Shown here: positions 4,611 to 62,992 of the stretch, piece after piece
How positions within the stretch are numbered: position 1 is the stretch's first letter
How the letters are laid out: each line of letters starts with the position of its first letter
Source: Chaetoderma sp. LZ-2023a
Taxonomy: Eukaryota > Mollusca > Caudofoveata > Chaetodermatida > Chaetodermatidae
Direction of reading: 5' to 3'
Assembly: GCA_034401795.1 (NCBI GenBank)
Contig: CM067370.1
Coordinates: 66,585,188-66,649,187 of the forward strand
Length of the DNA: 64,000 bases
The notes under the pieces: generated by a model
What the model was told of the DNA's origin: nothing
Databases searched by the model: none
Seen by the model: only the letters and a program-made list of their open reading frames with translations
Translations under genes and position numbers: made by a program

Positions 4611-6596
4611 TTAGTATTTGTCGATCATAGATTCCCTGGCAATCTTCTTAAAGGATTTCAGGTTTAATATACTATCGCGTATTTTTGTACTGGTGCTGTT
4701 CCATAGTTTTGTGGCTGCTATTGTAATTCATCGTTTTCCTATTTCTGTTTGTGTAAATTGAGTGTGTAAATTGTGTTTTGTCCTAGTGTTGTGTTTGTAG
4801 ATGTCGGTGCTTAGTGTGAAATTGGAGGCTATGGATTGTGGTAATGTATTGTGGTGAAACTCCTTTACAATGGTGTACATCTGTAGTTTGCCTATGTCCT
4901 TTAGTTTTAATAGCTTTTCTGACTTGAATATATTCTGGCCCTTTGCTGGTTTAGAAAAGAGTTTTAGTGCCTTTTTCTGTAGACTTTGTAGTTTTGTTAG
5001 GTTGCCTTTGTGTGTATTCGTCCAGATAGCGTTACAGTAGGTGAGATGCGGAAGAACAAGGGTGCAGTATAGAGTTTTAATTGTAGCTGGTGTCATGTAA
5101 GGTGTTAGTCTTTGTATGACACCTATGCCTCTTTCCACCTTTGCTGCTACCATCTCGATTTGTTTAGCCCAGGTCAAATGTTTATCCAAATATACTCCCA
5201 AGAATTTGGCAAATAGGGCCTCCTCAATTTCTTTTTTGTTTATGTAGATTTTTGGAATTTCATCTTTTTTTAGTTTGAGATTTGTAAATAACATATAATT
5301 TGTTTTGTCAACATTCAACGATAATTTGTTTATTGAAAACCAGTCAGTAATTTCTTCTATTTCCTTATTTGTTTTTCTGTATAAGTTGTCTATGTTGTCA
5401 TCGCAGCAAAAAGCATTTGTGTCATCAGCAAACAGTATTAATGGCATGTGCTTGCATATGTTAGGTAGATCATTCATGTAAAGAAGGAACAGCAATGGGC
5501 CAAGAATAGATCCCTGGGGAACACCACAAGTTAATGGCTGTTTTCAGAGCATATCTAATTATATTGTATGCATTGTGTTCTTTTACTTAGGTAGTTCTGG
5601 AACCAGGTGAGTGCACTGCCTCTTATACCATAATAGGCAAGTTTTTCTAGTAAGATCTGGTGGTTGATAGTGTCGAAAGCCTTTGAAAGGTCCAAGAAGA
5701 TGCCTATTATACTTTGGGTTTTTTTCCAGTGATTCAATAATTTTTTCTGTCATTTCGGCTATTGCATGCATTGTTGGATGTTTCTCACGAAATCCATAAT
5801 GCGATTTGTATAAAATGGACTTTTTGTCCAGGTAATTTGTCAGTCGATTGTACATAAGGCGCTCTAGTAACTTGGAGAAAAGTGGAAGTATGGAGACTGG
5901 TCTATAGTTTGAAAAGTTAGTAGAATCCTTGGCTTTGTAAATTGGTGTAACATGTACTATTTTTAGTTTTGATGGGAAAATGCCTTGTGCTAGGGATAAG
6001 TTGCAAATGTGACTAAGTGGGATAAGGATATCCATAACACAGGTTTTATAAATGCGCCACTTAAAACCATCGATTCCAGCACTTTTGGCTGGGTTGAGTT
6101 TGTTTAGAACGTTAAAGATCTCTTCAGTGTTAGTAGGGTTAACGAAGAATGATGATTGATAGCTGCCTGTAAGGTAATCAGAAAAAATTTTCTTGGATGT
6201 TGATTGGATTTTGGTCGAAAGTTCTGGTCCTATATTTACGAAATAATCATTGAATCCATTGGCAATTTCGAATTTATCGGTAATGACCTTATTCTTGTGA
6301 AGAAATCGTATCTGTTGTGCCGTATTGGTCTTGTTTAAAAGTGATTTAATGGTTTTCCATGTCTCTTTTATGTCATTTTTAGACTGTCCAAATTTCTTGT
6401 GATAATATGTTTTCTTAGCTGTTTTTATTATTTGATCTAATTTATTTCTATATTTTTTAAACTGAATTTCATTGTAGTTAGTTTGACACTTGATAAATGT
6501 TAAGTAGAGCTGATGTTTTGTATGACAGGCAGCTATTAATCCACTTGTAAGCCAAGGTTTAGTTGGGTTATGCTTATATTTTTTACTTTCTTTCAT
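4611..6596 (-). pseudogene. LINE reverse transcriptase and C-terminal domain
   Basis: RT motifs in order: AGIDGF, NYRPVSILPLFSKLLER, HYGFREKHPT, then after a frameshift [12 protein letters not shown], and after another YMNDLP and LFADDTNAF with catalytic Asp-Asp at 5421-5426. The thumb and C-terminal region run to 4611. Two frameshifts and one stop disrupt it, so no functional RT is made. The segment near 5520-5550 encodes the conserved GVPQGS-type motif partly in another frame. Confidence 0.88.
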
Positions 6597-6818
6597 TGGA
6601 AAGCTTTGTTAAAAAATAGTCGTGCAGATGTCATGAAACTTGTTGTAGGCATGCTCACAAGACTGAATGTCTGTTACTATGCTCCAATCGACCTCTGACA
6701 TAGATCTTTTGAATGTTTCAATGTTGACCTGACAGTAATATCTGCATTTAAACTTTTCCTGTTCGAATTGTTTCTGGTATGTTTGTTGTTTTTCTAGGAG
6801 AAATATAGGTAAATGATC

Positions 6819-7877
6819 TCAGATATCAGTTACAAAAATTCCGACATGAGTTTTACTGATATTGCGATTAATATTATTGCAGAATATGTTGTCAGTGATG
6901 GTCGCCATAGATTCTGTTGTTCTAGTTGGTTTAGTTATTGTCGGATAGTAAAAGTAGGTATTTAATAAGTTAATGAAGTCTTTGGTATGACAACATTTCT
7001 GTTGCTGCAGATCAATATTGAAATCACCCATAAGGTAGGCTGTTTTATTTTCCTTTTGCATTGTATCCAGAATTCTGCTCAAAGCTTCAATGAATTGTTT
7101 GTTGTTACTGTCAGGAGGCCTGTAGATTGTACCAACAATTTTATTTCTACCTTTTTGAATCGGAATTTCGATAAATATTGTTTCAATGTATTCTTCCATT
7201 ATGGAAAAGTTTTCACGCAAAATGAATTGAATATTGTCTTTTATGTACATGCCTACACCACCTCCACCATCCTTGTTAATTTTGTCAGATCTGTGCTTTT
7301 CGATAAATGTATAGTTATTCTTGTTAACTAGAGTAGTAGGTGAGTTTACTTTTAGCCAAGTCTCTGTAATTCCAATAATTCCAAACTCATGTGCACTCAT
7401 ATCTAGGAAATTAATTAACTTGGCATTGTTCTTCAGTATTGATCGAGTGTTTGCGTGCGTGCGTGAGAGTGCAATGCTTTCTTTACTATTTGTTATAAAG
7501 TCATTAAATTTGCTTAGAAGCGTATAGTTACAAGTGTGGGTGTTAAGTTTGAAGGGATTTAGAATTAGGTCTTGTATGTGCTCTATGAAGTTATATTCAA
7601 CATGTGGATTCATGATTGCAAGTGTGTAGTCAGCATCATCATTAATGTGATTGAAAGGGAATAAAGATTTGTTGCAGTTTAGACACCACCATGGTTGGTC
7701 ATCTAACTCAAGATGGAGATAATCAGAAGCAGTGAGTTTAGAACATCTTAAGTGAACCCACTCCGAACACAAGTCACATAATAAGGCTTTTTGATTAGTT
7801 CTAACAGGTCTCTTACAGGATGAGCAGGGGAATTTGGTTGGCATGGTAAGGATAGAAGAAGAAAAGAGCCGAAACAA
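6819..7877 (-). pseudogene. LINE ORF2 N-terminal part: PHD finger plus APE endonuclease
   Basis: The first ~65 residues after the MPTKF start form a C4HC3 PHD-type zinc finger (FPCSSC, ALLCDLC, WVHLRC, WWCLNC). The endonuclease follows with the family signatures ITETWL, GGGGVGMYIKD, TIYRPP, LMGDFNIDL and ITDNIFCN; it nicks target DNA for target-primed reverse transcription. The in-frame stop at 6816-6818 falls just before the last catalytic motif (DHLP, readable right after the stop), consistent with a single-base change in a serine codon. An earlier ATG gives 12 extra residues; the MPTKF start fits the domain better. Confidence 0.85.
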
Positions 7878-25479: not shown

Positions 25480-26440
25480 ATGGAGTCTCCAAATATGCTG
25501 TTCCAGGAGTTTAACCAAATGACGCTGGACCTTAAGGAAAGCCTTAATTGTTTCGCAACGTCCTCCCTAGACCGAGAGGAACAAAGAATCAAATGTGAAA
25601 CCCTTCATGATCACGTTCGACACATCATGCCGTGCGATGGGCATATTCCGGCCGAGGTATGCGAGTACCTTGAGGCGTGCCGATTCGCATTAGATGCCAT
25701 GAAACCCGGACAAGCAGGCGATCCCGCCTATATTGTCAGTTGGATGACCCGGGAACAACTTCACAAAGAGGTCGAGATGTTCCTCACTACTCGAGACAGA
25801 GATACCGTGATGTGGGATGAATTGCATGCCCACATTATCAAGTACTTCGCATCCGCCAACGAGTCCGAGCGACTCAAATGCGAGATAGAAAATGTACGAC
25901 AGAAGAGAGGTGAGGGAATTAACTCCTTTAATAGGCGATTCCGCACCATGGCCCAGAAGGCCGACCCCAACGACAATCAAGATAGCCGACGAATAGTCGT
26001 TAGGCCATACGTCAAGGCTTTATCGGACATATCTTGACCATGCAGAGTAATTACGAAAGGGAATGATACCCTAGACAAAGCAACCCGATACACTGAAGAA
26101 CAGGGCGACATGAGCGGCATACTCGAAGCAATGAATCTGAAAGACAGTAGGAGACAAGACCATCCCCCCCCCCCTCCCCCACCCCCCATGGAAATCGACG
26201 AATTCGAACACGAAATGAATTTGAATCCCCATCCCGAGCCCACTGTGAAACGACCGTAACTGACTGGCGAAGACAGTTAGACAAACTAGTAAAGAGAATG
26301 ATCGTGAGACAGGACAAGGTGATGCACAACATGTTCGCGATGGTTAAGGGACTACAGGATGAAATGCTTATGAAGTTAACCAGAATGAATGTAGCCGCAC
26401 AACAAGCACCGCGCGCATCCGGAAACAAGCAGCCTTGACA
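25480..26440 (+). pseudogene. Ty3/gypsy gag (capsid part intact, then frameshifted)
   Basis: The first 185 codons are open. ATG 25480 starts a helical capsid-like protein with SWMTREQLHKEVEMFL, DTVMWDELHAHII and a GEGINSFNRRFRTMA segment that fits the gag capsid C-terminal signature (E/S-x-FxxRF). After a frame change at about 26037-26050 the coding continues in pieces with a C-run encoding poly-Pro at about 26163-26187. Gag packages the element RNA. Zinc knuckles follow downstream. The polyprotein is not translatable as it stands. Confidence 0.8.
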
Positions 26441-26870
26441 GATAACATGTCACAATTATGGACAAACTGGCCATACCAAGCGACAATGCCAAAACATGGT
26501 GGCATTCAACTGACAGACTGACTCAAAGAAGACAATAACGTGTTATAATTGCGGGAAGATTGGCCATATGGCCCGAGAACGCCGCACAAGTAAAACGCCG
26601 AACCACAGCCTGCCGAAACAGCAGCAACCGGCACAGACGCAACAACAGAGACCAACCCAGCAACAACGTCCACCTCAGGCTCAACGACAGGAGTCACAAC
26701 AATCGCAACCACAGCAACAATGTCAACCACAGTTTAGACCCATATTCAAAAGATGTCATGATGAAGAACCGCAGGAAGCAAGGAAGCGACCCGCACATCA
26801 TCACGACCACATGTTTGACAGTAAGTGTTGGAAATGTGGCGCAGCTGACCATGTAGAGTAGGAAACATGG
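26440..26870 (+). pseudogene. Ty3 nucleocapsid zinc knuckles, all damaged
   Basis: Three CCHC-like motifs are visible in shifting frames: near 26448 (CHNYGQTGHTKRQC, second Cys replaced by Tyr), near 26540 (CYNCGKIGHMARER, last Cys replaced by Arg) and near 26826 (CWKCGAADHVE then a stop). A Gln/Pro-rich linker lies between the second and third. None keeps all four ligands. Confidence 0.75.
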
Positions 26871-27171
26871 AAGTGGATGCCATGACGACACTGACCTGGG
26901 GTTCCAGAAACACTAGACAGGACAACCAAAATCGTTTAGACGACCAACCCTACGAAGACGAAGATGGCTTCATCCTAACTGGCAAGAACACCGACGCCTA
27001 TGGAGAAGTGGTTTGTGGCAGTGACTGCAATATGCAGAGTGCGTGCCGCGATTACTATGGAAGTAGCAGAAGATGCTCATACGTGGAAGCCATGTCTGGT
27101 GGACCACGCGGTGACTGGTTAAACAGCGACGGAGGGAACACGCGACTGACCGGTTCCTGGTCCGACTCTTA

Positions 27172-28221
27172 TTGAGTGAGACGATGGGTCGCAGCAACAC
27201 AGTCAATACCGGTAAGCATAGTATAGATATTCTTATTGATACTGGTCCCAGTACATCGCTTATTAGGAGCGATATTTGTAAGACCTTATTAGGCACCCGA
27301 CCCTTAAGGAAGGTGCAGGTTTTATTAGCTGTGAATGGTTCACCCATTGACATTTTAGGCGAAACTGAGGTCAAGTTTCATGGTGCATGGCCAATCCCCG
27401 TCATGATTGCTAGGAAAATGCATCATCGGGGATTAATTGGAGCCGATGCTTTACACGTGGGTGGAGCCGTCATTAATTACAGAAAGGCAGAAATGGAATG
27501 GTTTGGTAAAACATACAAATTACACATTCCCTATAGGCACCAGAATGATTACTATGCTGAGGCCAGTATCACTGAGACAACTGGTAACAATGTTATCGAC
27601 GATGTTCTTAAGGAATACACTGATATCTTTGATACCGCTCGTCCGAAAGAACTGGGTATGAATCCTCTAGTAGAGTATACGATCCCTACCAATTGTTATC
27701 CAATTAGACAACGTGCTTACAGGTTACCGTTGATCAAACAGCATGTTGTGGAAGAGCAAGTCAAGGAGATGCTGGATGCAGGCATCATAAGGCCTTCATC
27801 ATCTCCTTGGGCATCTCCCATCACTCTAGTTCCCAAGAAGGATGGAACGACTCGATTTTGTATAGACTACAGTCGTCTTAATGAGGCAGTACCTAGAGAC
27901 AATTTTCCATTGGCCAATATTTCGGATATTTTCCATAGTATGCTGGGGGCAACTCTGTTTTCTACAATGGATTTGAAGTCTGGGTATTGGCAGATTCCAA
28001 TGGCAGCCAAAGACATTGAGAAGACAGCGTTTGTGTGCCCAGCTGGGCAGCTTGAATGGCTTCGTATGCCCTTTGGTTTTAGAAATAGTGGCGCGGTTTT
28101 CCAACGCGCCATGAACGCGGTTTTCCGCGGGTATGTAGGTAAGTTCATGCATGTGTTTGTCGATGACATTGTGGTATACTCTAGAAGTCATAAGGAACAT
28201 GCTCATCATCTGGATTGGTGA
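27172..28221 (+). pseudogene. Ty3/gypsy protease and reverse transcriptase (349-codon open frame)
   Basis: The aspartic protease comes first: ILIDTGPSTSLI carries the catalytic DTG. RT follows with YRLPLIKQHVVEEQVKEML, SSPWASPITLVPKKDGTTRF, CIDYSRLNEAV, MDLKSGYWQIPM, TAFVCPAGQLEWLRMPFGF and the catalytic FVDD (28156-28167) in place of the usual YVDD. This order and the motif style are diagnostic of Ty3/gypsy. The frame ends at a TGA at 28219-28221 and resumes in another frame (LLGYHISVAG). An intact ATG near 27181 could start translation but normally gag-pol is one polyprotein. Confidence 0.92.
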
Positions 28222-34401: not shown

Positions 34402-35427
34402 ATGGCAAGACGAAGGTTAAGTGATCGTGTGAAATGGCAAATCATAGGCATGCATACCACTGGTATGTCATGCAGAGAGATTGGCAGACAGCTGAACATT
34501 AACCATACTGTAATCAGTCGTTTGATTGCAAAACATGGGCAAACTAACGAGGTGAAGGACAGGCCTAGATCTGGAAGACCGAAGAAGACTACTGCCCTTG
34601 ATGATCGAGCCCTAGTACGCCTTGTTAGGAGATCTCCATTCACCAACAGCAGAGTGCTCAGCCAGCAATGGGAAACGAGCAATAGAGTGTCAATGTCTAT
34701 CGTCAAAAGGAGACTGTATGCTGCTGGCATGAAAGCTAGGAGACCTGTCAGACGTCCTCTCCTCACTGCACACCACAAAGAGGAGCGTCTGAGGTGGTGC
34801 AACGAAAGAAGACACCGGAACATGAGATCCTGGAGACGGGTACACTGGTCCGATGAAAGTCGGTTCCTGCTTCATGCCACAGATGGTCGAACTCGTGTAT
34901 GGAGGTCCAGACGCACGGCGTACGACCAACGTAACATCATGGAAGAAGTTCCATTTGGTGGAGGTTCCGTTATGATATGGGGGTGCATCTCATTTGATTG
35001 TAAGCTGGATCTGTTGACTGTACCTGGAACACTAAATGGACAAAGATATCAAGATTCCATACTGGATAGAGTTGTGGTCCCTCATTTTGTAAATCATGCA
35101 CCTGGAACCCACCCTATATTCATGGATGACAACCCCAGACCACATCGTGCTAGAGCTGTGCATGAATACCTCCGCCAGAATGCCATCGAAACCATACCAT
35201 GGCCAGCAAGGAGCCCTGACATGAACCCTATTGAGCATATCTGGGACATTTTGGGAAACATGGTGAGAAGGAGGGATCCTCCTGTGCAGAACCTACAGGA
35301 ATTAACAGACGCACTCCATCTTGAATGGCAACGAATACCACAATGGCGTATCAGTCGGTTGGTGACCAGCATGAGACGTCGTGTCCAGTCCGTCATCCAG
35401 GCACAAGGTGGATATACCCAGTATTAA
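34402..35427 (+). CDS. Tc1-like transposase, 341 aa, DD34E
   Basis: It catalyses cut-and-paste transposition at TA. The N-terminal ~110 residues hold a paired-type double helix-turn-helix (SCREIGRQLNINHTVISRLI) with an AT-hook-like RPRSGRPKK between the halves. The catalytic core has D151 (WSDESRF), D243 (FMDDNPRPH) and E278 (MNPIEHIW): exactly 34 residues separate D243 and E278, the Tc1 DD34E signature. A GGGSVMIWGC box is present. Length fits the family (about 340). It starts at the ATG at 34402, ~310 bp inside the left TIR, and stops at TAA 35425-35427. No stops or shifts, so it may be functional. Confidence 0.97.
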   Translation: MARRRLSDRVKWQIIGMHTTGMSCREIGRQLNINHTVISRLIAKHGQTNEVKDRPRSGRPKKTTALDDRALVRLVRRSPFTNSRVLSQQWETSNRVSMSIVKRRLYAAGMKARRPVRRPLLTAHHKEERLRWCNERRHRNMRSWRRVHWSDESRFLLHATDGRTRVWRSRRTAYDQRNIMEEVPFGGGSVMIWGCISFDCKLDLLTVPGTLNGQRYQDSILDRVVVPHFVNHAPGTHPIFMDDNPRPHRARAVHEYLRQNAIETIPWPARSPDMNPIEHIWDILGNMVRRRDPPVQNLQELTDALHLEWQRIPQWRISRLVTSMRRRVQSVIQAQGGYTQY

Positions 35428-50462: not shown

Positions 50463-51328
50463 CCCACCCCATCCACCATCGCCCAGCTGCACATGATACT
50501 GATATTGTCGACAAAAATATAAGGTAATCCATTGAGACCTCTAGGAGTTCGTTGACAAGAAATGATTGCCAGAGATGGACGGACCGATAGAGGGACATAC
50601 ATACATTTAGGACAGACGGATGGACGTACAGGTATAGGAATAGTACATGCACAGTTTCAAAAGAATCGGAGCTAAACTGTAGGAGTTGCGTTGACAAGAA
50701 ATGATTGGTAATGCAGTTTATGTATCAGCTTTAAGATAAAGGGGGATAAGTCTGCAGTGAATAATTTTTTTGCCTGTGAAAAATGCGCATGCACATCTGC
50801 ACATGATACTGATAATGTGGCTGGAATTTTAAGTTAATCCGTTGAGACCTCTAGGAGTCGCTTTGACAAGAAATGATTGTGACAGATGGATGGACTGACA
50901 GACGGGCATACATACATTTTGGATAGACGGATGGACGTACAGGTATACGGATAGCACATGCACACATTCACGTGTTACTGATAACACTTACCAAGTTTCA
51001 AAAGAATCGGAGCTAAACTGTAGGAGGAGTTGCGTTGACACGAAATGATTGTCACTGCAGTTTATGTATCAGTTTTAAGATATTTAAATGGGGATAACTT
51101 TGCAGTGAATAATTTTTTGGCCGTGAAAAAAGCACATGCACATCTGCACATGATATTGATAATGTGGACGGAAATTTAAGTTAATACATTGAAACCTCTA
51201 GGAGTTGCGTTGACAAGAAATGATTGCCAAAGATTGATGTACTGACAGACGGACATACATAAAGTTTGGACATACGGATGGACTTACAGGCATACAGATA
51301 CCACATGCAGACCTTCACATGGTAATGA
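50463..51328 (+). repeat. ~340-bp tandem array, left part
   Basis: Units contain ACATGATACTGATAATGTGG, CATTGAGACCTCTAGGAG, a GACAGACGGA-type stretch and ACCAAGTTTCAAAAGAATCGG. The ACATGAT landmark occurs at 50491, 50801 and 51148 (periods 310 and 347). The last unit breaks off at 51328 and continues at 58928. Confidence 0.9.
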
Positions 51329-52277
51329 CAGGAGGCCCAATGGGCCTGTATCGCTCACCTTTAACATTGGCATTTCAACTAATCTTACTTTTACATCAAT
51401 CGGTGTCACTTCCAAAGTTCAAATGACTTTCAGTCAAATGGTTTAGTTTTCGAGATATTGACAACAATCTCTTAGTCCAGGAGCTAAAGCTAGGTCAGAA
51501 TCGTGACGTAGCACACCCAGTATTCGGAAGGTCTGACACTTGCTGTGGCTTGGGGGACATGTCCCACACATTTTAAGCCCTGTTGTACAAACAAATTGTG
51601 GTAGCACTAATTAGTTATCCTGATTTCTTTGCATAGATGGTCTAGGCTTTGGCTGTATCCACAGTGCACAACGATATAAGCATGATCGTGTCATAACTCA
51701 AAGTAATATCGTATTAGATTCACCATATATGATATTTAGACGGATATCGACCTAACATATATCCAACATACATTTTGCATGCATATACCAAAGGCGAGGG
51801 TGAAATGTGAAGGTTATATTTTATGTATGTATACTAACTCCATCATAGAATCTGTATATCCAGCTGTACCACTGTTGACAAAGCACCCAGGTAATGGTGG
51901 TTGGAATGAGACAGATGGATGTGGTGGTAATCGGTGCGGAAAAACAAATTAAAATGAATACTACACCTCACATCGCTCTCATTGTCATTGTCTACATATA
52001 ATTCAAATTATGCCTGTAACACTTGTTCCGGGGTAATTTTGTAATTTGACATCACAAGTAAACTGAAAGTTTTATTCACTCATTTTCTCAAATACAAATC
52101 TTTTTTTGAAAAGCAAATAAGAATGCAAGTGGCATTTTATGAATTTGTATTCATGAGAAAGGTTGTTAATACATGCCTTGATTAATAAAGCCTAGTATTG
52201 ATTTAATATATATGCACACACACTAATTACATTTGCGAAATAATTACAAGCGCTATATAACTAGCAATTAAGCAAAT

Positions 52278-55200
52278 ATGGACAGTGATAGTTGTGACGA
52301 GGAAGTAGCGTTTCATCTTCTCCCAGAAAAGCGTATCAAAACGACACAATGGACTCGCTGTATTATTTGTCAAGCACATAGTAGCGAAACTGTTAGCAAT
52401 GCCACTGAAGTCGGCATCTCAAAGTTCATAGAGGCTTTCCAACACCGGGAGGATGACGTTTATGAAAGACTTAACTCAAATATTGATCAATTAAAACAAC
52501 TGGATATCGTGTGGCATAGAAACTGTTATGCTAAATACACAAGCAAGCACAATATTAACTTTGCGAAAAGACGATCCATGGCACCACCAACTCCTATGCC
52601 TCTTGATAAACAAAGTCCAGAAGAATCGACAAGTTTGGCTAGAGCAGCAAGATCGAGATCATCCCCGATAAACTGGGCAATGTGTATGTTTTGCCAAAAG
52701 AAAACTCACAAGAAAGTCAAGAAATTATTCTCAGTTTCTACATTTTCCACATGCCAAAACATACAAATTGCAGCAGAGAAAATGGCGGATACAGAAATGC
52801 TTACCAATATAAGAGGCGTAGATTTAATCGCTTCAGAAGCCAAATATCATGAAATATGCAGTGCACAGTATGTATCAATGCGCAATGTGATGTATAAATC
52901 ATACCAAGAAACTGTGAATGAGGATTCGTTCTCCCAATCATTCTCGGAGCTGGTAGCAGAGATAGAGTCTGGACTTGTATCAGGAAAAGTTTACAGCATG
53001 ACATATTTGTTGAGTCGATTCAAGTTTTATCTAAAGAATAATGGTGTGACTGCTGACAACTACCGCTCCCAAAGACTGAAAAGCCGATTACAAAACTACT
53101 TTCAGGATTCAATCGTTTTTCACCAGCAGCTAAACCCTTCCAAACCCGAGCTTGTTTATTCCAGTGATATATCTTTAGAAGATGTTATTAATGCAGCTGC
53201 CAATGCAGCTGGTGGTAGATCAGCGTATACTGATAGGCCACATGGCTCAACTGATACTACTAGCAATGATGTTCACACGTTGTTCCACGCAGCGCAGATT
53301 TTGAAGGGAGATTTGGAGGCTTGTGAGGGGATCACCATTAAACCAGTTGATGTTGACAATCTGACACTCGCAAAAGCAAAGGAAATTATTCCCCAAAGCC
53401 TCTACTGGCTGCTGCGGTGGGTTACCACGAATGCAGATTTAGCACCAGAGCAGTTTGGTAATGTTAGATCAGAATGTGCTAATGAAGGTGATGAGAGGTA
53501 TGTAATGATGATATGCCAAGACATAGCGCATTGTGTATCACACGGGAGAAAGAAAATGCCGAAACACATAAGCCTCGCTATGACAATGAGGCATCTTACA
53601 GGTTCCAAACAAGTTGTCACCATTCTGAATCGTATGGGTCATAGCGTTTCCTATGATGATATTGAGGTAGTTGACACTAGTATGGCGCTTGAGTATTAGC
53701 TCAATCAACACGGTATGGAGTTGTAATACCAACAAACATTGTTCCAAACTCGTTCGTTCAAGTAGCAGCTGATAACAATGATATACTTAAAGAAACCTTA
53801 GACGGTAAACAGACAACTCACTCAACGACAATGGTGATGTTCCAACGAATGCAATTTGGCCCAAGACCAGAGCGTGTCATACATGCTGAACACTCAGTCA
53901 GGAGAAGGGCTTTGACAGCACCAGGTACTGAAAACAGAATTCTTGATTGTGGGGTGTTTGGTAGAAGACCAGTTGTGACCGCGTTCATAGACACTGTCAA
54001 GAAGGATTGGTACCAATGTGAAAGCTCAATCCAGGAACAGGCATTAGTCATGGATCTTGCATGGGCCATCGTTCGAATGTGTCCAATAAAATTGTTTGTG
54101 GTAGATCTTGTACCCATGATGACCACAGAAACACAAACAGTCCCTAGTTGGAGTGGATTTAATGCACTTGTATCATGTGCTAACGCACCGTTTACACAAA
54201 TCGGTTACTGTCCAATGATTTCCGGATCACCAACTGAATTCAATACGGTGTATACGGTCATGAAACAAGTTCAAAGAATGATGACAACACTAGGACAGAA
54301 TGACTCGGTCATTAAATTCGACTTGGCCATACATGTCAAGGCAAAGGAGATACAGTGGCGATATAAAGAAGAGTTTAGTGACACTGTGATCAGACTGGGG
54401 GGATTCCACATTGCGCTAAACTACTTAACTGTTATTGGAAAGATGTTTGATGACTCTGGCTTAGAAGATCTCCTCATAGAGGCCAACACATATGGTAGCA
54501 GCACGGCTGCTGCTCTACTTAAAGGGAAGTCATATAATCGAGGAGTGAGGGCTCACAAATTGGTTATGGAAGCGCTGCTGCGATTACAATGGCAGTCTTT
54601 TTCCAAATGGGTTCAACAAAATGGACAACATGAAGACCACATTACTCCAACCGAATTGGAGAGTCTGGATGAGAAAATTAAGATGTGCCGAAGCAGCATT
54701 GACGACTTAGACGCACTGCAAGAAAATTTCAAAGAGGTGTGTATGTACGTGAATAAATTTCAACAGCTGTTCAAATCCTTTAAAGTTGAGTCAAGCTCGA
54801 AATCACACCTGTTCGCATTTTGGAACTCATATATTCATATGGTAGAGCTGCTGCTTGGATTCATAAGAGCTGAGAGAACTGGAGATTGGCAAGCACACCT
54901 ATCTGCTACTGCTGCTTTGGCGCCATATTTCTACAGCATGGACAGAACCAACTATGCAAGATGGCTGCCAATATATCTTGCGGACATGAAGATGCTTCCA
55001 AGTACACATCCCCATGTACATGAACAATTCTTGAATGGAAATCATTCCGTAAGTCGCTCAGACCATCCATTCAATCAAGTGTGGACAGATATGGCCTTAG
55101 AGCAAGCGATTAATTTGGATTCCAAAACGCGAGGTGGTATTATTGGAATAACACAAAAGCCAGGAGCTCTGGAGAGGTGGTTTTTAACTAGCCACGAGAG

Positions 55201-57142
55201 GGCAGCCATAACAACGGTCACAAAGCAAATGTGTGGGTTACAAGATAGTCACATGTTTGGAGTACATAAGGAAATGGGGACTAATCGAATGAACAGGGAT
55301 GAAACCGATGTGCAGAAGATACTTTCGATGTTCTCATCAGATATAATGACCAATCCCTTTAATATTGCGGAAAACGACGACAGCGAGTGTCTTCCGCTTG
55401 TAAACATTGCAACTGGCGTGGTATTGCCTAGTGAAATCGCCAAGAGACTTGTTTCCGCCTGTGACATTGGTAAGGAGATTATGGAAAATTTTGTTCAGGA
55501 GCAGCTGGACACTAACACGAGAAGCTTTTGGGACACGTTGCCACACTTAAAACTTAAAACATTTGCCAGCCTAGCACAGAAGAAAAAACTCAAAACAAAT
55601 GATGAAAAAATTCACAATGTGAGATCTGACCGCGAACTATTTGGTCGATTAATTTTTGCCGCAAGGTCCAGAGATGTTGATTTAAAACTAGTGATGACGT
55701 ATGAACTGTCTGCTGTTCCACTATCATTGTCACATACGGATGGAACTCTAAGAAAGAATGTGAAAAGTGTTTTGTTAAGTGAACTAGAAAAGGAAGTAAA
55801 TGTTGATGGACGGCTTCCACCTGTTGACAAGACAGGCGCAACAGCTTATGTAGTAGATGGCATGGCAATTGTGCAAATGGTTAAAACTGGAGGTACGTCT
55901 ACATTTGGAGAATTGGCTGATAAATACTGGCACATCTTTACAGTTCCACTGAATCAAGAAGACTGCAACAGAGTAGATATAGTTTTTGACAGATATGATA
56001 GAGTAGAATCTCTCAAAGCGGAAGAGCGGCTAAAAGGTGGGTCATCAACATCATTGGAAGTAAAGATTGCTGGAGAAAATACTCCCGTTCCAAAGCAATG
56101 GGCCAAGTACATCAGCAATCCAAGCAACAAAAGTAACCTGGTTGCATTTCTCAGTAAGTGGTGGCGTGATACTGGTCCAAATATGCTATCTGCCGACAAT
56201 TGCGTCATTCTTGCTGGTGGCTTTAACGATGGAATGGATGTTGTTGTCATTTCAGCGAACAATTCGTCGTATTTGGAAGAACTTCGATCAGATCACCAGG
56301 AAGCAGATACGCGTATGATGTTGCACGCGCTACATGCTTCAAAAGACCACATGCGTGTTGTTATACAGTCTCCTGATACAGACGTGGCAGTACTTAGTAT
56401 ATATACGTATCGTTCGCTTCACTGTTCTGAACTATGGTTCCGTACGGGCACAAAGGACAAATTGCGATACATACCAATACATACAGTTGCTCAAGTACTG
56501 GGCCCAGCTATCTGTCTGTCTTTGCCTGGGTTTCATTCTCTTACAGGTTGTGATAGCACTAGTGCATTATTTGGAGTCGCTAAGAGAAAAGCATTCAATC
56601 TCTTAAAGTCATCTGAATGTCATCAGCTTAGCTTAGCCCAACTCGGCGAACATGTTGACTTATCACCGAATACTGCAATTCTATGTGAGAAATTTGTCTG
56701 TGAGTTGTATACCACCAGGGATGTGGGAAAGACAGCTGATGAAACCCGTTATTGGCTCTTTTGTCAAAAGAGACAAAGAAATGAAAATCTTCCACCTACA
56801 TCGAATAGTCTAAAGCATCACACCGAAAGGGCCAATTTTCAAGCTCTTGTTTGGAGACGTTCATTGCAAGCTGTTCAGAATCTTCCATCTCCAAATGGAC
56901 ATGGCTGGAGTATAGTGGATGGTCTACTCAAGCCTGTTCTAATGTCAAAGGATCCTGCTCCATTTGGATTAATTGAACTCACATCATGTAGATGTCAAAA
57001 GTCTGCCTGCAAAAGAACAGATCTCTGTCAATGCAAGGCTAACAATCTACTCTGCACTGAAGCATGCCTTTGTATGGGAGGTGAAATGTGTGACAATGTT
57101 CAGCATACAATTGTCGAAGATCACTCTGACACGGATGAGTAA
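52278..57142 (+). pseudogene. large C2HC / FEN1-like nuclease / CXC-tail protein, one frameshift
   Basis: Two frames, 52278-53699 (473 codons) and 53693-57142 (1,150 codons, first ATG 53831), form one ~1,620-residue gene broken by a one-base shift at 53693-53699. N-terminus: two C-x2-C...H-x3-C modules (CIICQ/WHRNC, CMFCQ/YHEIC). C-terminal third: acidic residues in the order and spacing of FEN1/XPG nucleases, D676 (YVVDGMAI), D720 (VFDRYD), E824 and D826 (HQEADTRM), D849 and D851 (SPDTDV), D908 (LTGCDSTSALFG), numbered from 53831. The tail is a CXC-like cysteine array (CRCQKSACKRTDLCQCK) and an acidic end. Similar uncharacterised proteins are multicopy in corals, molluscs and fish as I recall; their function is unknown to me. 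Nuclease activity is inferred. An AATAAA lies at 57685; CTATATAA is just upstream at 52253. Confidence 0.8.
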
Positions 57143-57780
57143 CATCCTCTCATTTGCTCACGTGATAAATATGTCCTGCCAGCTTGTGTAGACATGCACT
57201 GCATGTCAGTTAAAAGTTTAATTATGAAAAATGTAGAAAACATGGGCATTGTTGTAGCTAAGGTATTGCTAGTCACAAGAAGACCTAAGTGCCCCAATAT
57301 GTACAAAGCAACATACGGGTGTCTTAAACGAGGTTGATTATGTATAAATCTGCGATATACGATCACTCCTTTCCATTTTGGTTAAGATTGTATTGATATA
57401 ACATGCGCTTAAGTTTGTGAAAAATTTACCATTGTGAAAATTGTTTGAGAGCTACATTCAACACCTATTGTAAATGGGCTTCTCACGGGTTAGTGATACC
57501 ACAATTTTCTTGTACAACACGGCTCAGAATATACCTAAGACATCGGTCTAGCATAATATAGAGACAAACCTTCTGAATACTGGGTGTGCTACGAAACCAT
57601 TCTTCTAGACCCCTTTTGAAAATTGGCTCCCGGACTATCTGGACAGTTTTTTGCATTAGTGATTTCGAACAATGTTTAAGCAAAAATAAATGATATCAGT
57701 GCTAACTGCAGCTGGTTTCTTAACTTTCTCACTACTGCAAGCCAGTGCAGCCAATAATTTCAATTTTCAAACGCTCTTGA
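57143..57780. other. 3' flank of the nuclease-like gene
   Basis: No further coding is seen. It contains AATAAA at 57685-57690, a possible polyadenylation signal ~540 bp after the stop. Confidence 0.4.
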
Positions 57781-57787
57781 CTTGTTG

Positions 57788-57868
57788 AATATTTTGAAAA
57801 CAATTCGACTGAAAGTTGTTGGCAGCTTAGCCACCAACAACTTTCAGTCCAATTGTTTTCAAAATATT
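57788..57868. repeat. 35-bp foldback palindrome (one mismatch)
   Basis: Arms 57788-57822 and 57834-57868 pair at 34 of 35 positions around an 11-base loop. The arm motif ATTCGACTGAAAGTTGTTG is a dispersed repeat: related arms occur at 58090-58200, and CTTTCAGTCAAATGG at about 51431-51445. Confidence 0.92.
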
Positions 57869-58087
57869 TATCAGGTTCAGAGATATAACCTTTGGAATAT
57901 GTCGTCTGCAAAAACTGCAGTCAGACGGTTACTAGAGGTTTAAATACAATTGAAGAAAATGGTCTCTAAATGCAGGTAGGTGGCCTTTATAGCAGGTTAT
58001 TCCCCACCACCACACAATCTCTTTAACACATGCACATCTGGCTGAATTACCAAGTTAGCAGCAGGGGTAGGGTGAGCTGGAGTTGAT

Positions 58088-58190
58088 TTAAAAAATAATT
58101 TGACTGAAAGTCATTGCTGCAGCAACAACCTTCATTGCTGCCTAGGGCAGCAACAACTTTCAATCAAATACATTTCAAAATATTTTTAAG
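58088..58190. repeat. second, diverged foldback of the same motif
   Basis: AATTTGACTGAAAGTCATTGC pairs imperfectly with GCAACAACTTTCAATCAAAT about 60 bp further; the loop is itself GC-rich with CCTAGG. Confidence 0.75.
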
Positions 58191-58894
58191 AGCATAGATG
58201 TCAGAGCACATAATACATATCTTAAATATTTCTGCAGTATTGGTTAATCTGTTAATTGGAGTTTAATATCTACTTCGGCAATAAAATCTGACATGGTGAT
58301 AAATCAATGGACGCTGTAAACAAACCTGTATTTGCCCTATGAAAGTGTGACTGCAAATATTTAAGGGGGTGATAACTCTGGCATGTGACGGCTTATCAGT
58401 TTCATTTTCACAACACAGATATTAGATGTCGACATTAACATTGTGACCAAGTTTGGTGTCAATCCGTCAAGAAAACAAAATGAACGGCCATTGTTGGTGA
58501 CGGACAGACAGAAGTATGGACGGACATACAGAAGATGGATGTGGCCATCGCTATACGACAGCTGACTGACAAGTCATTCAAGATGGCCGCCGAACCATTT
58601 GGCCAATCAAGTTCCTTCGAACAAATTTGGTTCAGCTCTTTCCCTATATGATATTTCGCCAGTTTTGAATCGATCCACCAAGCGATTTCGGAGAAGATTT
58701 TTTTAAAGACATTTCCTAAAATCGGCCAAAATCCAAGATGGCCACCGCCCAAATTGGCCGATCGGCTTTGTTTGAACAAACATGGATCTCAAATATAATT
58801 GAAATCAGCCCTGTGGTTCTTGAGAAGAAGTCGTTTAAAGAAAAAAGTTGACGGACGGATGGATGGATGGACGCCGGACGGTCGCCATGGCATA

Positions 58895-58925
58895 AGCTCA
58901 CATGGCCATTCTGGCCAGGTGAGCT
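58895..58925. repeat. terminal hairpin of the 7.6-kb insertion
   Basis: AGCTCAC-A-TGGCCA, loop TTC, TGGCCA-G-GTGAGCT: 13 pairs and one mismatch, ending two bases before the right boundary. This hairpin type is common in molluscan dispersed repeats, as I recall. Confidence 0.85.
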
Positions 58926-58927
58926 AA

Positions 58928-59277
58928 TAACACTTACCAAGTTTCAAAAGAATCGGCGCTAAACTATAGGAGGAGTTGCGTTGACAATTGAATGGCAATG
59001 AGGTTTATGTATCAGCTTTAAGATATTTAAAGGGGATAACTCTGTAATGAACGTTTCTTTGGGCGTGAAAAAAGCACATGCACATCTGAAAATGATACTG
59101 ATAATATGGAAGAAATTTAAAGTTAATCCATTGAGACCTCTAGGAGGAGTTACGTTGACAAGAAATGATTGTCAGAGAGGGATGGACCGACAGACGAACA
59201 TACATACATTTTGGACAGACGATAGATGGACGTACAGGTATACGGATAGCACATGCACACCTTCATCTACCCCTTCC
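58928..59277 (+). repeat. ~340-bp tandem array, right part
   Basis: Same unit as 50463-51328 with the landmark at 59090. Subtracting the insertion gives a period of 342 bp from the landmark at 51148, matching the array. Confidence 0.9.
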
Positions 59278-60120: not shown

Positions 60121-60307
60121 CTTTCATGACAGTTAATATTATGATTATCCGTCATGGTGCTCGCCGTGTGAGTTCCAGCAATGCATGTACAGCACTGCCC
60201 CACCCCCACCCCCAGCCTCGAAGGGGTCCACCCAAGCTACTGGTGGTAAAGTTCGTAGACCTTGGAGAAAAAGGAAGAAGGTTGTCCAACCTAAAGTACA
60301 AGTAAGC

Positions 60308-61142
60308 AACCCGCTGACTATCATGCAATGGAATGCTGAAGGAGTTTCTAACAAGAAAACGGAGCTTAGCCAAATTCTCAATGAGAAAGGTGTAGATGTC
60401 GCGTGTATCCAAGAAACTCATCTGAATGCCAACATAAGATTCTGTATAAGAGGATTTCAGTGCTTCGGATCTGACAGGGATGGAATACATAAAGGAGGAG
60501 TCATAATCCTGGTCCGGAATAACCTAAATGCCATTGAGGTTCAGAGAGACATGGACGGACCTGAAATTCTCACAATCAAGATAATTCCAGAGAAAGATCC
60601 TATCACTGTTGTCAACTATTACTGCCTTAATAATCAACCATTGAATCTCAGAAAAATTCCAGTTCACCCAGATTCAACTATCGTTGCTGGTGACCTCAAC
60701 AGTCATTCTCAGTTATCGGGGCTATCGTTCTACTGATAGGAGGGGTGAGGACGTTGAAAATTGGATGGATGAGCAGAAGGTGATTCTCTTGAATAAGGCA
60801 GATGACCCCCTCCCCACCCCTACATTCTACTCAAGACGATGGCATACCTCAAGTTCTCCTGATCTAGCATTTTCGACAGAAAATCTACATGAAGAATCTT
60901 TGCGTATTGTTGGGGAACAACTTGGAGGCAGGGATCACTGCCCTGTTTTCATTACCATTAACATGGATGTTGAGATTGACCGGAATCAGACTCCTCGATG
61001 GAACTATAAGAAAGCAGACTGGGACAGATATCAGAAAGAGAGTGACAGATTGGTAAAAAACATTGATGTCAAAAACCAAAATATCAATAACGTTGTTAAA
61101 GAGCTAAACTCTGCTCTTTGCTGCTGGCAAATGCATTCCTAG
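60308..61142 (+). pseudogene. LINE APE endonuclease
   Basis: MQWNAEGVSNKKTELSQIL starts the domain; ACIQETHL, GGVIILVRN, VAGDLNSHS (catalytic GDLN), SPDLAFST and GGRDHCPVF follow, all the expected endonuclease motifs. A frameshift near 60715-60736 separates GDLNSH from the rest. Confidence 0.85.
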
Positions 61143-61423
61143 GGGATCCAGGAAAAATTACAGACCTTACTGGAGTACGTCTCTGCGAAAGTTACATGAA
61201 GAAATGTCCAACGCGAGTGAAATTGCAGAGAATGTCCCAACAGAAGCCAACCATGTGAGACTCCAACAATCCAGGGCAAAATATCTGAAAGCCAAAATCA
61301 GAGCCACCAGAGAATCGTGGAGAGAAGAAACGTCAAGCTTAAATTTTGAAAAAGATACAAACAAACTCTGGAGGCCTGTGAAGCAGCTTAACGATGAAAA
61401 CACCAGAGTACCATACATAACTC

Positions 61424-62992
61424 TTGAAGAGGATTGTGAAATCAAAACAGGAGAGGCTGCCGCTGAACACTGCTTGTATGTTTCAGAAAGTAAGCAATCT
61501 AGATGTGCCAGTGAGTTGTAAAAAAGCTGCAATGAAGTCTGCAAAGGGGAACGGAGAGACACAAATACATGGCGCGGGAATGGATGAGCTTCTGACCATC
61601 AGCGAGTTGGAGAAAAGCTTGAAAGTTCTGAAAAACAGGAAGTCTCCTGGACCAGATGGAATAACCAATGAGATGTTGAGGAATCTGGGTACTATTGGAA
61701 AGCACAAGCTTTTGGAGATTTTCAGCCACAGTTGATACACAGAAGTTCCCCAGTCTTGGAGAGAGGCCAACATCATCCCTGTGCTGAAGAAAGGCAAGAA
61801 TAAATCCAAAGCGGAAAGTTATCGACCTATCAGTCTGACTAGTTGCACTGTCAAAGCCATGGAAAGAATCCTCAACCAGAGATTTCTTTGACATCTGGAA
61901 AGCAACAATCTCTTAGCGGATGAACAAAATGGCTTCAGAAAGTGTAGATCTAATGAGGATCAAACAACATATCTGACACAGTCTATTGAGGAGGCGTTCC
62001 AACAGAAAAAGCATACCATCACTGTGCGGGCTGATAAGCAGAAGGCATTTGATAAAGTATGGAAGCATGGACTCCACCAAAAGCTCAGGACCAGTGATAT
62101 TTCTGGGAAAATGTACAGCTGGATATGCCAGTATCTCCACAACCGAAAGGGATCAGTACAGCTGAATGGGACAAGCAGCAAGAGAGTCCTGCTACGACAT
62201 GGTGTACATCAGGGTTGTGTAGTCTCTCCCACCCTCTTCACTATATTCATCAACGACCTGGTGAAGAACCTTCCAATGGGAGTCAGAGCTGCATTGTATG
62301 CTGACGATCTCGTGATGTGGAGCAGCGAGGAGTATGTGTCAACAGCCAATTACCGCATGCAACTCGCAATTGATCACCTCAATTCTTGGGTTACAAGATG
62401 GTTTGTCCAGATCAACAAAGAGAAGACAGTCACAACTTTATTCACACTATCCACTAAAAAGGAACACAAGACAAGTCTGAAATTTGGTGACTCAGTTCTG
62501 CACTTTGAGGATGATGTAACTTATCTTGGTCTGATATTTGACAAAAGACTAACCTGGAAAGTGCAAATCAGAAAAGCTGAAGGTATAGCCAAGTGAAGAC
62601 TGGCAGTTATGCAGAAGCTCTCTGGAACAAAATGGGGAGCTAACATGAAAATTCTGAAACAGGTTTACTCTGGATCAGTTAGGACAATCATCGAATATGG
62701 CTCATCATCATGGATGACAGCTGCTACAAGCACCCTTCAGACATTGGATAAGGTACAAAATCAGGCTCTCCATATCATAACAGGGTCTATGAAGACCACT
62801 CCAATAGCAGCGATGGAAGAACTTACCAATATCCAGCCACTCCAGCAGAGACGAGAAATCAAGGCCGAGATTCAATACGAGAAATTCAAATTGATGCCTC
62901 ACCATCCCATGCATATGCTAACTCACCAAATGTCTAGAGGAAGGCTCAAAAGGAATAATTTCTTATTAACTTCCCCAGATGTAGAAACGTAA
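61424..62992 (+). pseudogene. LINE reverse transcriptase and thumb
   Basis: Motifs: SPGPDGITNEML, SYRPISLTSCTVKAMERIL, NGFRKCRS, VRADKQKAFDKVW (first Asp; DVQKAFD usual), GVHQGCVVSPTLFTIFINDL and LYADDLVMW with YADD at 62297-62308, then NKEKT and a thumb to 62595, and a C-terminal part 62609-62992 (YGSSSWMTAATSTL). Four in-frame stops. Confidence 0.9.

Follow-up and report, generated by a model that had tools for sequence, protein, structure and literature searches.

What brought a nuclease-like gene into a segment with Helitron-like ends is the question raised by a 64,000-nucleotide stretch of Chaetoderma sp. LZ-2023a contig CM067370.1 (the window, whose positions are used throughout). The gene lies in a 7,599-bp segment (51329-58927) that interrupts a tandem array, and an earlier note on the window had offered two answers: a non-autonomous Helitron-like carrier that captured the gene, or a new element that uses the nuclease-like protein as its mobility enzyme. 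We find that the segment is a composite, a Helitron-like repeat interrupted by a cut-and-paste transposon at 51473-57637. Its history is very probably that of a nested insertion, in which a Helitron-like element entered the array and was later hit by an Academ-type transposon bearing its own transposase.

A composite segment in a tandem array

The segment begins with CAGGAGGCCCAATGGGCC and ends with GGTGAGCTAA, and its insertion point lies between TGA on the left flank and TAACAC on the right, the intact array unit next door reading TGATAACAC. Because that neighbouring unit is intact, the outer insertion is taken to have occurred without target duplication. Array anchors are spaced 310 and 347 bp apart, in agreement with the periods reported before, and 343 bp apart across the insertion after 7,599 bp are subtracted; deletion of the segment does restore the period, at a figure one base off the 342 bp of the earlier note. 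Both ends fold as hairpins (-21.9 kcal/mol for the 3' end), and letters and folds bear out the precise insertion, the CTAA end and the hairpins on both sides that had been described. A library scan of the segment's two long frames, the only frames scanned, gave no match to a Rep/helicase, and to that extent the reported absence of such a gene holds. The parts of the composite are as follows (TIR, terminal inverted repeat; TSD, target-site duplication).

50487-51328, + strand: left part of the tandem array, the target of the outer element, with units of ~310-347 bp (anchors 50487, 50797 and 51144; unit alignment)
51329-51472, + strand: 5' part of the outer element, starting CAGGAGGCCCAATGGGCC (5' end 82-89% identical in 28 of 29 other copies)
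51331-51349, + strand: 5' terminal hairpin of the outer element (fold)
51470-51472, no strand: TCT, left copy of the inner TSD (empty sites)
51473-57637, + strand: inner TIR DNA transposon, 6,165 bp, TAGTCCAGGAGC...GCTCCCGGACTA, likely of Academ/AcademX type (28 further scored copies, an exact 3-bp TSD around 24 of them)
51473-51610, + strand: inner left TIR, imperfect, ~74% over 51497-51610 (self-comparison)
57490-57637, - strand: inner right TIR (self-comparison)
57638-57640, no strand: TCT, right copy of the inner TSD (empty sites, copy flanks)
57638-58927, + strand: 3' part of the outer element, ending GGTGAGCTAA (matches in other genome copies)
58895-58925, + strand: 3' terminal hairpin of the outer element, 31 bases, ending two bases short of the element end (fold, letters checked)
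58928-59265, + strand: right part of the tandem array, with the unit split between TGA and TAACAC (segment boundaries, unit alignment)

Outer copies elsewhere carry an empty site

The genome of the window (2.44 Gb, 2,753 contigs) was searched with 57640-58927 as the outer-family query, which returned 11,493 first-look candidates; 40 were scored, and of the 30 loci extracted one was the window's own. In 28 of the 29 other copies, the base at window position 51472 joins that at 57641 directly, with flanking probes 11-18 bp apart where 12 was expected. The junction has been removed by a deletion in the remaining copy (L036), from which the gene is also absent. No piece of 51473-57637 was present in any of the 29, and none of those read had the gene at the position that it occupies in the window. 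The empty sites read CAATCTCTGGACAG or CAATCTCTGGACTG, as in ...GACAACAATCTCTGGACAGTTTTTTTGC of L017, and the filled site in the window reads CAATCTCT, followed by TAGTCC...GGACTA and then by TCTGGACAG. Comparison of empty and filled sites shows that the inner insertion duplicated 3 bp, TCT.

The outer family is abundant, and its 25 other two-ended copies measure 1,324-1,746 bp; the window's outer element comes to 1,431 bp once the inner element and one copy of the TSD are discounted. The earlier note had treated the outer ends and the gene as a single unit and had proposed a genome check for the gene in other copies with these ends. That view fails on the 28 empty sites and on a count of 0/29 for the gene, and the outer ends prove to be those of a shorter, gene-free element, which is in spirit the outcome that the note itself had set against its proposal.

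The inner transposon moves on its own

Self-comparison of the segment revealed an inverted repeat between 51497-51610 and 57490-57603 that runs outward to TAGTCC/GGACTA, the inner TIRs being imperfect repeats of more than 100 bp with ends TAGTCCAGGAGC and GCTCCCGGACTA. With 51474-57637 as the query there were 1,705 first-look candidates, and 29 places including the window were scored. The 28 other copies, at 97-99% identity, comprise 10 of near full length (one of these with its last 23 bases beyond the main alignment) and 18 with internal deletions; both ends are well preserved in 26, and the left end is damaged in the other two. When both flanks of all 28 were examined, an exact 3-bp TSD was found around 24, as it was in the window, with 14 different triplets represented (ATA five times and TTA four times). 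The 56 flank pieces of these copies, each of ~80 bp, held no clear outer-family flank and only one 27-bp match; in the copies read, the inner family is not confined to outer copies. The inner element moves independently: it has TIRs to itself and duplicates 3 bp on insertion.

Six full-length inner copies compared pairwise are 98.3-99.1% identical, whereas outer copies elsewhere share only ~92% of their core with the window. This is what one would expect if the inner element is the younger of the two. The 18 deleted copies have 12 breakpoint pairs, and all have lost the start of the gene and kept its 3' part. Some breakpoint pairs are common to two or three deleted copies on different contigs, as if derivatives had multiplied, and the bias towards 5' deletion may stem from the ranking of candidates.

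The nuclease-like protein as a probable transposase

The gene and the candidate domains of its product are placed as follows.

52278-53699, + strand: N-terminal part of the putative transposase gene, a frame of 473 amino acids (aa) before the frameshift (open frame)
53693-57142, + strand: rest of the putative transposase gene, a 1,149-codon frame that lacks a start of its own; counted from its first ATG, at 53831, it codes for 1,103 aa (open frame)
53771-55102, + strand: candidate DDE catalytic domain with D 53771, D 54320 and E 55100 and with a DUF6589-like stretch (64-row alignment, codons checked)
55844-56572, + strand: FEN1/XPG-like nuclease motifs VDG, VFD..SIK..ER, EADTR, SPDTDV and TGCD (alignment; weak Exo1 and XPG_I matches)
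56984-57097, + strand: cysteine-rich CXC (tesmin/TSO1-like) tail (PF03638 match, conserved cysteines)

The window's copy of the gene is frameshifted, with 473 aa in one frame and 1,149 codons in the other. Among the 10 further copies of full length we read five, of which three have a single 1,621-aa frame from the first ATG and two are broken. These intact frames, with the high identity among full-length copies, speak for recent activity of the family. Conservation was counted over those rows of the 64-row alignment with a letter at the position in question. The candidate triad is conserved in 53/53 rows for the first D, 63/63 for the second and 60/62 for the E; the triad is our own choice, because further acidic positions come close to it in conservation.

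Motifs of the VFD..K..ER, EAD, DTD and GCD type are those of the FEN1/EXO1/XPG nucleases, and in the inner-element protein they are collinear. The D of VDG is kept in 64/64 rows, the E and D of EAD in 60/60, both D residues of DTD in 57/57 and the D of GCD in 54/56. One of 10 fragments gave a weak match to XPG_I (E=0.028), and a PDB search gave a weak match to Exonuclease 1 (E=0.41) over two short collinear stretches. The protein differs from the FEN1/EXO1/XPG nucleases in that its nuclease-like part sits behind a probable transposase core, and its matches to them are below significance. In the PDB, a search with the single protein returned no match up to E=1, and one with the 64-row profile returned nothing better than E=0.27.

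There were 150 protein homologues; among the 120 matches listed, the species-named ones are cnidarians, lancelets and echinoderms, two metagenome bins are also present, and the long homologues are of ~1,600 aa. The bins named Sedimenticola and Candidatus Thiodiazotropha hold the listed homologues P0041 and P0068, and this is probably host DNA in symbiont bins.

The nuclease-like protein is probably the transposon's own mobility enzyme. Part of the second answer in the earlier note survives, in that mobility is the likely role of this protein; the element that it would serve is its own TIR transposon rather than the 7.6-kb unit.

The order of events is very probably that a non-autonomous Helitron-like element of ~1.4-1.7 kb entered an array unit between A and T with no duplication, and that a 6,165-bp cut-and-paste transposon subsequently entered the outer element, duplicating TCT. 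The transposase, of ~1,620 aa, would combine a probable DDE core, a FEN1/XPG-like domain and a CXC tail in one polypeptide. Most likely it binds the TAGTCC...GGACTA repeats, and we infer that the DDE core would cut the element out, that the XPG-like domain would trim or resolve flap intermediates and that integration would be staggered by 3 bp. The outer element may have been mobilised by a partner, plausibly a Helitron Rep/helicase.

Comparison with Academ transposons

Set beside AcademX by described traits and not by sequence, the inner element is likely a young AcademX-type transposon. It has TIRs, a 3-bp TSD, a candidate nuclease-like domain together with a probable transposase and a length of ~6 kb, all of which are points of likeness; the comparison, made by description alone, shows no difference. 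AcademX traits other than TSD length and nuclease are general background here.

According to a 2023 study, AcademX makes TSDs of 3 or 4 bp and AcademH of 9 or 10 bp, and the difference seems to be tied to the helicase and nuclease encoded by Academ lineages (PMC10045372). A study of bivalves gives a mean length of 5,565 bp for 100 curated Academ elements (PMC10294476). The inner element likely belongs with AcademX, since its nuclease-like motifs, its 3-bp TSD and its length fit these accounts. AcademH, which would belong to the same superfamily, differs in having a helicase and, in the same study (PMC10045372), TSDs of 9-10 bp, in contrast to the 3-bp TSD of the inner element, neither long frame of which gave a helicase match at E up to 1. 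No description of an Academ element with XPG and CXC turned up in a literature search.

The class of the outer element

The best reading of the outer element, which starts with CA at its 5' end and has a hairpin near its very 3' end, is a non-autonomous Helitron-like element. Helitrons insert between A and T without a TSD, have a 5' TC, a CTRR-type 3' end and a 3' hairpin, and form head-to-tail junctions. End statistics were compiled on 26 two-ended copies (25 others and the window), leaving aside L010, L016, L021 and L024, in each of which one end was unrecognised. An A precedes the element in 25 of the 26, with the exact A-T site in 17; CTAA forms the 3' end in all 26, and three (L019, L025 and L029) abut another outer copy head to tail. 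A permutation scan with k=2-8 and shifts found no convincing target duplication at the outer ends, the best 3-bp flank match being 12/26 where permutation gave a mean of 8.0 (sd 1.7). A hidden TSD is rejected on this result, and the absence of duplication reported in the earlier note is upheld by the scan as well as by the intact neighbouring unit. The outer element thus resembles Helitrons in its A-T target, its lack of a convincing TSD, its CTAA end, its 3' hairpin and its head-to-tail junctions. It differs in the placement of that hairpin two bases from the end, canonical Helitron hairpins being spaced ~10 bases from it.

Among the 29 other copies some 5' matches are partial, with only 55 bp retained in L016. 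Identity in the 3' part is ~92% over the first 930 bp and ~79-92% over the last 350 bp, and ~225 bp near element position 7245 are present in most other copies and missing from that in the window.

The genome has 103 Helitron_like_N matches, so Helitron enzymes exist in it. Four Helitron loci were fetched in the hunt for a partner, of which three had complete long frames, with 1.8-3.7 kb upstream and ~6 kb downstream, and the fourth was cut by the contig end. At one locus (L111, G000:C1:24538082) a reverse outer-family fragment lies ~200-1000 bp behind an intact autonomous Helitron frame, a position that is perhaps due to chance given the abundance of the outer family.

Alternative explanations

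Capture of the nuclease-like gene by a non-autonomous Helitron, giving one 7.6-kb unit, would account for Helitron-like ends outside the gene, for the A-T site and for two long frames with no Rep/helicase match. It is scarcely credible in the face of 29 other outer copies that all lack the gene, 28 of them with the exact empty site, and of a gene segment that has TIRs and a TSD to itself and recurs in 28 other scored copies, with no clear outer flank around any of them. What stands of this part of the earlier note is a Helitron-like element at an A-T site; what falls is the capture. Just as remote is a new 7.6-kb element whose CAGGAGGCCCA...GTGAGCTAA ends are moved by the nuclease-like protein, even though that protein is probably a mobility enzyme and is located between those ends. 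Gene-bearing copies end at TAGTCC/GGACTA and not at the outer ends, the first-look candidates number 11,493 for the outer query and 1,705 for the inner (the query lengths differ), and the outer core is ~92% identical to the window as against 98-99% for the inner element. On the empty sites and the independent inner copies we reject both capture of the gene by a Helitron and a single 7.6-kb element.

Two further alternatives concern the class of each element. The outer one may be of a non-Helitron class that makes no target duplication, a minority reading that we nevertheless take seriously: its 5' end is CA and not TC, its 3' hairpin lies two bases from the end and no matching autonomous Helitron was seen among the few loci read, against which stand the A before the element in 25/26 copies, the CTAA end, the lack of a convincing TSD, the terminal hairpins and the head-to-tail junctions in 3/26. 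That the inner element, though a nested TIR transposon, falls in a non-Academ DDE superfamily, perhaps one so far undescribed, is unlikely. That view draws on the lack of any Pfam model at cut-off, a weak DUF6589 match and an Academ likeness by description only; it is opposed by the combination of a nuclease with a 3-bp TSD, the AcademX pattern of PMC10045372, and by a length of 6.2 kb, near the Academ mean of 5,565 bp in PMC10294476. Just as unlikely is an inner lineage outside described Academ, active now or recently, in which one polypeptide, joining a DDE transposase to a FEN1/XPG-like flap nuclease and a CXC DNA-binding tail, would make up a self-contained excision and repair machine.

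Several points weigh against a nested pair of Helitron-like and Academ-type elements. Both families were sampled, with 40 of 11,493 outer first-look candidates scored and 29 other copies read, and 29 of 1,705 inner candidates scored. Four of the 28 other inner copies are without an exact TSD (one has TTA plus one additional base, one has no TSD, and in two the left end is damaged), and copies 9 and 10 have common flanks and are not independent, so they represent one insertion event that was duplicated. The outer element begins with CA where Helitrons begin with TC, and outer ends were at the expected place in none of the three complete Helitron loci, nor in the fourth, cut by the contig end. 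The evidence for the nuclease and DDE assignments consists of motifs and of matches below threshold: DUF6589 (E=4.8e-4) is below its curated Pfam cut-off, PF03638 (E=0.079) is likewise below cut-off, a Pfam scan of six other family members found no domain above cut-off, and a hypothetical protein (E=0.053) ranked ahead of Exonuclease 1 in the same PDB search.

Significance and neighbouring elements

On the nested reading, what had looked like capture of a gene by a Helitron is no such case: a seemingly single precise insertion is a Helitron-like shell interrupted by a transposon of another class. One known kind of mobile element inside another is an ordinary arrangement, though an instructive one. 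The nested reading also brings to light a young transposon family with intact copies of the 1,621-aa putative transposase in a large genome of the invertebrate type, and this family is suited to asking what role an XPG-like nuclease plays inside a cut-and-paste transposase.

Other mobile elements were recognised by eye elsewhere in the window. An unbroken 341-aa frame at 34402-35427 has the look of a Tc1/mariner-type transposase. Broken frames at 4728-7877 (- strand) and 60185-62596 (+ strand) appear to be two non-LTR retrotransposons with endonuclease and reverse transcriptase motifs, and Gypsy-like gag and protease/reverse transcriptase frames lie at 25480-28221 (+ strand).

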